From: Streptomyces cyaneochromogenes
GTDB taxonomy: Bacteria; Actinomycetota; Actinomycetes; Streptomycetales; Streptomycetaceae
Assembly: GCF_003963535.1 (NCBI RefSeq)
Contig: NZ_CP034539.1
Coordinates: forward strand, 1,612,001 to 1,676,000
Direction: 5' to 3'
DNA length: 64,000 nucleotides
Part shown: piece by piece, positions 18,055-20,180 of the stretch
How positions within the stretch are numbered: the first letter of the stretch is position 1
Layout: each line of letters starts with the position of its first letter
Translations under genes and position numbers: made by a program
The notes under the pieces: generated by a model
The model's database searches: none
What the model was told of the DNA's origin: nothing
Seen by the model: only the letters and a program-made list of their open reading frames with translations

Positions 18055-19323
18055 CTACCGGAGTCGTCCCTCGTGGAGCACGCCGGAACCGCTGCCCCGA
18101 CGGAGCAGGGCCGCCGTGTACACGTCCGCGGCCGATGCCCAGCCGAAGGACCGGGCATGCCGGATGGCGGCCTCGCCCATCCGGGCCGAGCGGGCAGGGG
18201 TGTCGGCGAAGCCGTACAGGGCCCGCGCGTAGTCCGCCGGGTCGTGTCCGGGTACGAGAACGCCGCTCACCCCGTCCCGCACCGCCACCGGCAGGCCGCC
18301 GACCTGCGCGGCGATCACCGGGGTGCCGCAGGCCTGTGCCTCGACGGCGACCAGACCGAAGGACTCGCTGTGGGACGGCATGACCAGGACGGACGCCGCC
18401 CGGTACCAGTCGGCGAGCCGGTCCTGGCCGACCGGCGGCCGGAACAGCACGACATCCCCGATGCCCAGGCGGGCCGCCAGCTTCTGCAGCCCTTCCGGCT
18501 CGGCCAGGCCGCTGCCGCTGGGCCCGCCCACGACCGGCACCACGATCCGCTCACGCAGCCGCGGCCGCTCCGCCAGCAGCCGGGCCACCGCACGCAGCAG
18601 TACGTCCGGCGCCTTCAACGGCTGTATGCGGCCCACGAACAGGGGGATCAGCGCGTCCTGCGGGAGGCCGGGGCGGGACCGTGCCACGGCCCGTCCGGCC
18701 TCGACACCCCGGGCGTCGGACCGGAAGCGCTCCAGGTCGACACCGGGGTGGACGACGGCGACCCGGCCGGGGTCGGCGTCGTAGTGGCGGAGCAGGTCCT
18801 CCGCTTCCTTGCCGGTGTTCGCTGTCAACCGGTCGGCGGCCCGAACGACCTGGGTCTCGCCGAGCACGCGGGCCGCCGGTTCAGGGGTGTCGCCGTCGGC
18901 CAGGCCGGCGTTCTTGACCTTGGCCATGGTGTGCATGGCGTGGACGAGCGGGACGCCCCAACGCTCGGCGGCGAGCCGGCCGACGTGACCGGAGAGCCAG
19001 TAGTGGGAGTGGACCAGGTCGTAGTGGCCGGCCCAGCTGTGCGTCTTCACCCACGGCGTGACGCAGGCCTGGGCCGACCACCACCCCTCCACCTCTATGC
19101 CGAGGACGGCGAGGCGCTTGGCCAACTCGACGATGTAGACGTTCATTCCGCCCGCGTCGCCGGTACCGGGCTGGTGCAGCGGTGAGGTGTGCACGCTGAG
19201 CATCGCGACGCGGCGGGGGCGGTGGCGGGCGTCGGGTGGCCGCGACCGGGGTGGGCCGGCCGGCGTGCTGCCGTGGGCGCAGCCGTGCTGGAGCTCTTCG
19301 AGCCGGGTCCGGTACCGGCTCAC
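18055..19323 (-). CDS. MshA-like D-inositol-3-phosphate glycosyltransferase, internally rearranged
   Basis: GT4 family glycosyltransferase of 422 aa. MshA makes the first mycothiol precursor from UDP-GlcNAc and inositol phosphate. N-terminal motifs match MshA closely: [35 protein letters not shown], and later [82 protein letters not shown]. Between GIEVE and [11 protein letters not shown] the family's ~60 residues are replaced by ~19 odd residues, partly because 32 bp are inverted (19037-19068). It is shorter than typical MshA (~450) and probably impaired. GTG 19323 overlaps the fdhD stop (GTGA). Probably a paralogue rather than the housekeeping copy. Confidence 0.8.
19030..19075. repeat. 7-bp inverted repeat bounding an inverted 32-bp segment
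   Basis: GGCCCAG (19030-19036) and CTGGGCC (19069-19075) bracket 19037-19068. On the plus strand this block reads, in frame, [15 protein letters not shown], the expected MshA segment, although the gene runs on the minus strand. Swapping the 32-bp core restores the consensus on the coding strand without changing the frame. Confidence 0.75.
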
Positions 19324-20180
19324 CTCGCCGGCCCGCCCGCCATGGTCTCGGCCCGCAGGTCGAGGCGCTGCTCGCCCGCGTACACGTTCATGGAGCCGCC
19401 GCGCAGAAAGCCGACGAGCGTGAGCCCCGTCTCCGCCGCCAGGTCCACGGCGAGGGAGGACGGCGCCGAGACCGCCGCCAGCACCGGGATGCCCGCCATG
19501 ACCGCTTTCTGCGCCAGCTCGAAGGACGCCCGCCCGGACACCAGCAGTATGTGCTGCGACAAGGGCAGTTGGCCGGACAGCAGCGCGCGGCCGATCAGCT
19601 TGTCGACGGCGTTGTGCCGGCCGACGTCCTCCTTCAGGTCCAGCGGCTGGCCCTCGGGCGAGAACAGTCCGGCGGCATGCAGGCCACCGGTGCGGTCGAA
19701 CACCCGCTGCGCGGCGCGCAGTCGGTCCGGCAGGGTGGCCAGCAGTTCCGGGGTGACCCGGACCGGGGGTGTGTCGGCGATCGGCCAGCGCGTCGTGGTC
19801 CGTACGGCGTCGAGGCTTGCCTTGCCGCACAGGCCGCACGACGACGTGGTGTACACGTTCCGTTCGAGGGTGATGTCGGGCAGCGGTACGCCCGGGGCGA
19901 GTTGGATGTCGACGACGTTGTACGTGTTCGAACCGTCCTGGGTGGCACCGGCGCAGTACACGATGTTCGCCACGTCCTCGGCCCGGCTCACCCCCCCCTC
20001 GCTCACCAGGAATCCGACGGCGAGCGCGAAGTCGTCCCCGGGTGTGCGCATGGTGATCGCCAGCGGCTTGCCGCCGAGCCGTATCTCCAGTGGCTCCTCC
20101 GCCACCAGGGTGTCCGGGCGCGTGCTGCGCACACCGTCCCGGATGCGCACCACGCGGCGTCGTTCGGTGACCCGTCCCAT
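19320..20180 (-). CDS. fdhD: FdhD, sulfur carrier for formate dehydrogenase maturation
   Basis: FdhD passes sulfur from a cysteine desulfurase to the molybdenum cofactor of formate dehydrogenase; 286 aa, usual length. Diagnostic motifs: [34 protein letters not shown], the redox motif SSCGLCGK (Cys pair near 120), [25 protein letters not shown] and [15 protein letters not shown]. The gene follows sdaA by 27 bases on the same strand and overlaps the mshA-like gene by GTGA. No formate dehydrogenase structural gene lies in the window, but formate is an expected end product of the neighbouring demethylation genes through formaldehyde and PurU. Confidence 0.96.

Follow-up and report, generated by a model that had tools for sequence, protein, structure and literature searches.

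An in-frame deletion-inversion scar in the fdhD-linked mshA paralogue of Streptomyces cyaneochromogenes

Introduction

How can a glycosyltransferase gene carry a piece of its own family's sequence on the wrong strand and still read through in frame? The question arises from a 64,000-nucleotide stretch of DNA (the window) that covers 1612001-1676000 of the single-contig, 10.68-Mb genome of Streptomyces cyaneochromogenes (estimated completeness 100%). For an mshA-like gene in this window, the original prediction had described a 32-bp block inverted between the arms GGCCCAG and CTGGGCC, whose flipping would restore the family sequence, and had left the choice between a one-off scar and a reversible switch. 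Two neighboring genes are concerned:

18055..19323, minus strand: scarred mshA paralogue (GT4 glycosyltransferase, 422 aa), whose GTG start overlaps the fdhD stop
19320..20180, minus strand: putative fdhD (named from its sequence), the upstream partner gene, which marks the orthologous locus

Results

An mshA paralogue beside fdhD and a second, intact mshA

The assignment of the gene to the MshA family stood. Against TIGR03449 (mycothiol MshA; curated cut-off 462.5), the scarred protein scores 513.7 bits, split over two stretches, and an unscarred orthologue (L092) 637.5 bits; the MshA structures PDB 3c48 and 3c4q match the gene's family by sequence. A genome search for a housekeeping mshA, which the original prediction had suggested, located an intact second copy (L002) at ~4.665 Mb of the same contig (G000:C1). 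Its match scores 660.6 bits and spans almost all of the profile, and we infer it to be the housekeeping gene; the scarred gene is the fdhD-linked mshA paralogue.

The fdhD stop and the paralogue start overlap in GTGA (19320-19323). The same holds for L090, L091, L092, L098 and L099: in each of them, the match to fdhD stops at the first base of the paralogue's GTG. Such an overlap points to translational coupling. Outside the scar, the gene contains neither a stop codon nor a frameshift. At about 18110-18150 (minus strand), four residues are missing near the C-terminus (GWASA----ADVY) that the 10 other sequences of alignment A1 all contain.

Family sequence on the opposite strand

We compared window positions 18900-19230 by BLASTN with 27 sequences, namely 26 paralogue loci (with three duplicates, hence 23 genomes) and the genome's own second mshA. 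Every one of the 27 subjects broke the query into three pieces, direct, inverted and direct again, the first running to 19087/19088, the inverted one starting from 19027-19031 and the last matching from ~19031 down. The inverted piece, with E-values from 1e-21 to 2e-6, ends early (19074-19084) in eight subjects (L011, L013, L073, L090, L097, L100, L102 and L106); the right direct piece starts at 19032-19036 in L097, L100 and L102. For L090, in which four codons are absent at this place, it extends, gapped, up to 19076.

Could this match be fortuitous? Read inverted, 19028-19087 is identical to L092, its best relative, at 56 of 60 bases, and identity over the 27 sequences lies at 44-56 of 60 except in L097, whose frameshift makes a fixed register fail (18/60). 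The highest score was 36/60 both among 2000 shuffles and among 183 control 60-mers taken elsewhere in the gene. A chance resemblance to MshA is thus ruled out, and the plus-strand family sequence described in the original prediction is real.

Nor does the block look like a product of sequencing. Library preparation is known to produce inverted chimeras at short repeats, and the scar was seen in a single assembly. Yet the genome is a single contig with a completeness estimated at 100%, and the joins are in frame, with a loss of 117 nt. Every one of the 27 sequences, among them the genome's second mshA, departs from the block at 4 or more of 60 positions, so that the block is a copy of none of them. 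We therefore regard a fold-back chimera, or another assembly or sequencing error, as highly improbable.

Anatomy of the scar

Where does the inverted block begin and end? With the relatives numbered from their RVAML codon (window 19212), direct matching covers positions 1-126, down to window 19087. Positions 241-300 pair with the plus strand at 19028-19087, and direct matching resumes at 299, running down from 19031; the counterpart of 127-240 is absent. Between 19212 and 19027, the net loss amounts to 117 nt, or 39 codons, in frame, in agreement with the ~40 residues noted earlier as missing after GIEVE. The block ends are ambiguous by 1-5 nt. The most economical cut places the inverted block at 19030-19087 (58 bp, relatives' 243-300), with the flank resuming at 301 and 126-242 lost. 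If 19087 is put in the inverted block, the right flank can be intact to the base, so that deletion and inversion share a breakpoint. The parts are as follows:

19088..19212, minus strand: direct 5' piece, relatives' 1-125 (RVAML...GIEVE), by BLASTN and position-by-position match
19087..19088: join 1, from GAGGTGGAG to the inverted block; 1-nt microhomology (19087); 117 nt (39 codons) missing
19030..19087, plus strand: inverted block, ~58 bp (possible range 19027-19087), relatives' 243-300
19037..19068: spacer of an internal quasi-palindrome with arms 19030-19036 and 19069-19075, originally read as the 32-bp block
19027..19031: join 2, between the inverted-block end and the right flank; 4-5-nt microhomology (CCGGC on the gene strand)
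18900..19029, minus strand: direct 3' piece as far as aligned, 95% identical to L092

The overlap at join 2 is 4 nt, or 5 nt against some relatives, compared with 1 nt at join 1.

This anatomy revises the limits first proposed. The flipped unit is ~58 rather than 32 bp, extends to 19087 and takes in DHHP, which the plus-strand reading of the block contains and which is present in the orthologue L092. The GGCCCAG/CTGGGCC arms, taken at first as its bounds, lie inside it, and the first of them alone reaches an end. Decisive are positions 19073-19087: in 26 of the 27 sequences, 9-15 of these 15 bases agree with the inverted reading and 3-5 with the direct one; L097 gave 5 (inverted) versus 8 (direct). 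Since this stretch fits the inverted reading alone in those 26, we reject a 32-bp inversion. The arms form a quasi-palindrome, and so their bases look unflipped in either orientation, which accounts for the apparent AWAGHYDL after a 32-bp flip. A longer imperfect repeat around the same arms was also detected in the window. Of the earlier claim that a flip restores the consensus, the part that holds is that inverted family sequence is present; 32 bp is not the unit, and the 39 lost codons stay lost. The statement that the current orientation keeps the frame open proved correct.

Immediately ahead of GHYD, two relatives, L090 and L100, are four residues short. In L090, this is apparently a 12-bp deletion between short direct repeats, and in both the loss would be a separate, short deletion. 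The 32-bp reading looks good against L090 because that sequence is without these four residues at this very place.

A derived state found in one genome

Is the scar an ordinary variant of the family? Among the matches listed from a contig scan of relatives, nine loci (L009-L016 and L073) are of the paralogue type, eight of them adjoined by fdhD (not L013). A search of 392 genomes of the genus, from which the best 30 matches (own genome and 29 others) were taken, added 17 with the paralogue; the remaining 12 are without it in the stretch examined. Three loci occur in both sets and are identical over the compared region (L009/L092, L014/L101 and L016/L103), leaving 23 other genomes. The orthologue comparison thus covers 23 copies: 22 are unscarred and normally oriented, one (L097) is frameshifted and none is scarred. 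Orientation is normal in all 80 best-listed contig-scan loci, whether of paralogue or housekeeping type. Among the best 30 genus matches, 17 loci hold the paralogue, and 16 of these are normally oriented, the other being the frameshifted one. The sequence of join 1, searched with up to 3 mismatches in 150 relatives (91 of the same genus, own genome included), was found in the own genome alone (1/150).

With no scar in the copies of 23 other genomes, an ordinary family variant is rejected, and the option of a one-off scar is the one that stood. When the scar columns were left out of the tree, the window copy grouped with seven normally oriented copies in a clade of 99% support (the node joining it to its nearest sister has a support of 19), and by this sequence comparison the scar is a derived state relative to its relatives. 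Scarred relatives may exist outside the genus sample, which is incomplete, and outside the contig-scan matches listed, from which records of the own or a very near genome may be missing.

The frameshift of the L097 paralogue (G098:C247) lies near residues 88-95 in the numbering of L092, and may reflect independent decay or a draft error in this many-contig assembly.

Does the locus switch between two forms? Known intragenic invertons, a class that Chanin et al. reportedly described in 2024, have both orientations open. Like them, the scar is inverted within a bacterial gene that can be read through either way, and its inner 32 bp are flanked by 7-bp inverted repeats; unlike them, it involves an irreversible loss of sequence and carries no evidence of switching. 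Bacterial intragenic inversions as such have been reported (cited in PMC11868660). A reversible switch between two MshA forms is very unlikely, indeed close to negligible, because flipping cannot give back the lost 117 nt; moreover, the repeats fail to mark both block ends, one arm lying 12 bp inside, the block ends share only 1 and 4-5 nt with their new neighbors, and the loci of relatives are in normal orientation as counted above. A search for recombinases left PF00239 (resolvase) and PF00589 (phage integrase) unmatched in the window (G000:C1:1612001-1676000), with 2 and 7 matches, respectively, elsewhere in the genome, and a switch with a local recombinase is accordingly not supported.

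Consequences for the protein

What has the protein lost? The deleted segment corresponds to L092 residues 78-115 and includes K112, which aligns, its tag allowed for, with K78 of the Corynebacterium glutamicum MshA structure 3c48. In the C. glutamicum enzyme, K78 would be a ligand of the acceptor phosphate. All 15 unscarred copies compared have the aligned lysine, which the scarred gene has lost, and in the inverted part ~19 further residues become antisense-coded. The scarred protein does not have the complete N-terminal acceptor-binding region, K78 equivalent included. As the invariant lysine is lost, MshA activity is probably gone, as judged from the alignment. Structure predictions were of low confidence for both the scarred and the unscarred protein (mean pLDDT 42.7 versus 46.0).

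Has the gene started to decay? Pairwise dN/dS between the window gene and nine relatives is 0.14-0.26, overlapping with 0.10-0.27 among eight of those relatives; together with an otherwise open frame, this means that the decay is recent or that some constraint remains. A count of private amino-acid changes at columns that do not otherwise vary gave 1 for the window copy and 0-3 for 22 others. Relative to outgroup L012, in comparisons that are not independent of one another, the paralogue has 13, 14, 11, 9, 10 and 12 amino-acid changes in the window copy versus 7, 4, 7, 4, 5 and 6 in six sisters, with silent changes at 18, 25, 20, 22, 19 and 19 versus 21, 13, 25, 22, 18 and 23; for fdhD, the amino-acid changes are 4, 6, 12, 6, 6 and 8 versus 6, 5, 5, 5, 4 and 8. 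With L099 as outgroup, the paralogue counts tilt alike (13-15 versus 4-8, likewise non-independent). This excess in the window copy, which leans toward relaxed selection, is weak, because fdhD of the same genome also has the highest mean pairwise dN of seven. That the altered protein, born of one copying error, is expressed in translational coupling with fdhD and fills a new or regulatory role appears quite improbable.

Discussion

How did the scar arise? We favor, with a probability of about 0.6, a one-off complex mutation by template switching in a second mshA copy that is probably dispensable. While the DNA was being replicated or repaired, the nascent strand would have come off its template after GIEVE and continued on the opposite strand from HHP|GHYD. 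There it would have run backwards for ~58 nt, as far as the start of (P)AQLC, before rejoining its first template at GHYD; the outcome would be the loss of 117 nt and the inversion of the next 58 nt (four-point type 1-3-2-4). The scar decomposes into a direct, a local reverse-complement and a direct fragment, as expected of a four-point template switch, and the ends of the pieces meet to within 1-5 nt. From this, we infer a single event for both changes and template switching as its route. Unscarred alleles carry a quasi-palindrome at the scar site, which is seen in the window too. As single-stranded DNA, three of these alleles fold at -14.5, -21 and -18.9 kcal/mol (z -2.04, -2.51 and -1.15), and 6, 5 and 26 of 200 shuffles, respectively, fold at least as well. 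A hairpin may hence have helped the switch, though it is not exceptional.

Two successive events would, however, give an identical sequence. In such a scenario, an in-frame 117-nt deletion and an independent template-switch inversion at the quasi-palindrome followed one another. Spacer inversion between short inverted repeats is documented in yeast coding genes (PMC8604942), and short in-frame deletions do occur elsewhere in the gene (those of L090 and L100 and the window's C-terminal loss of four residues). What makes two events unlikely is that deletion and inversion abut within the 1-5-nt ambiguity, which is unexpected if they were independent, and that the inverted block overruns the palindrome arm by 12 bp on one side.

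Double-strand breaks with Ku/LigD-type end joining could likewise have excised a fragment, trimmed 117 nt at one end and religated it in reverse. Two Ku matches are present in the genome, and the 1-nt and 4-5-nt microhomologies fit this route equally well, which we nonetheless hold to be unlikely: it requires three breaks within ~175 bp plus the capture of a 58-bp fragment, and makes the quasi-palindrome at the site irrelevant. Template switching, end joining, microhomology-mediated break-induced replication and two events would all be expected to leave the same sequence, by which they cannot be told apart.

Either way, the scar is a further example of an already known type of mutation. The template-switch origin that we prefer is reminiscent of the short-range four-point model applied to great apes by Walker et al. 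in 2021 (PMC7954356), with credit to Loytynoja and Goldman. According to that paper, a 1-3-2-4 event swaps a larger region for a shorter reverse complement, and too much sequence disappears for it to be reconstructed. The scar has the same three fragments (L-1, inverted 2-3 and 4-R), unlike the great-ape cases described there lies in frame in a bacterial coding gene, and with 117 nt exceeds the limit of 50 deletions per event stated for their search. As in the yeast inversions of PMC8604942, a quasi-palindrome lies inside coding sequence and the frame is kept; those cases concern spacers with 2-5 substituted bases, in contrast to ~58 inverted bp plus a deletion, with one end off the arm. Human-chimpanzee microinversions, for which PMC8755829 proposes microhomology-mediated break-induced replication, are also small and sit at short inverted repeats, but are described there as pure, <33 bp and without deletion.

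What does this mean for the family? The scar represents a clean bacterial case of a compound, template-switch-type mutation in a coding gene. Because the frame is kept, it hides from pseudogene callers. The protein resembles MshA (D-inositol-3-phosphate glycosyltransferase, TIGR03449) in sequence family and remaining domains and differs from it by 39 deleted and ~19 wrong-strand codons in the N-terminal domain; as it still scores above the MshA equivalog cut-off (NCBIfam), automatic annotation would mislabel it as a working MshA. That a second genome (L097) is frameshifted in the paralogue, possibly by assembly error, suggests that the fdhD-linked mshA paralogue is dispensable. Overall, the deletion-inversion scar at this locus is real, derived and in frame, and the paralogue that bears it is probably dispensable.
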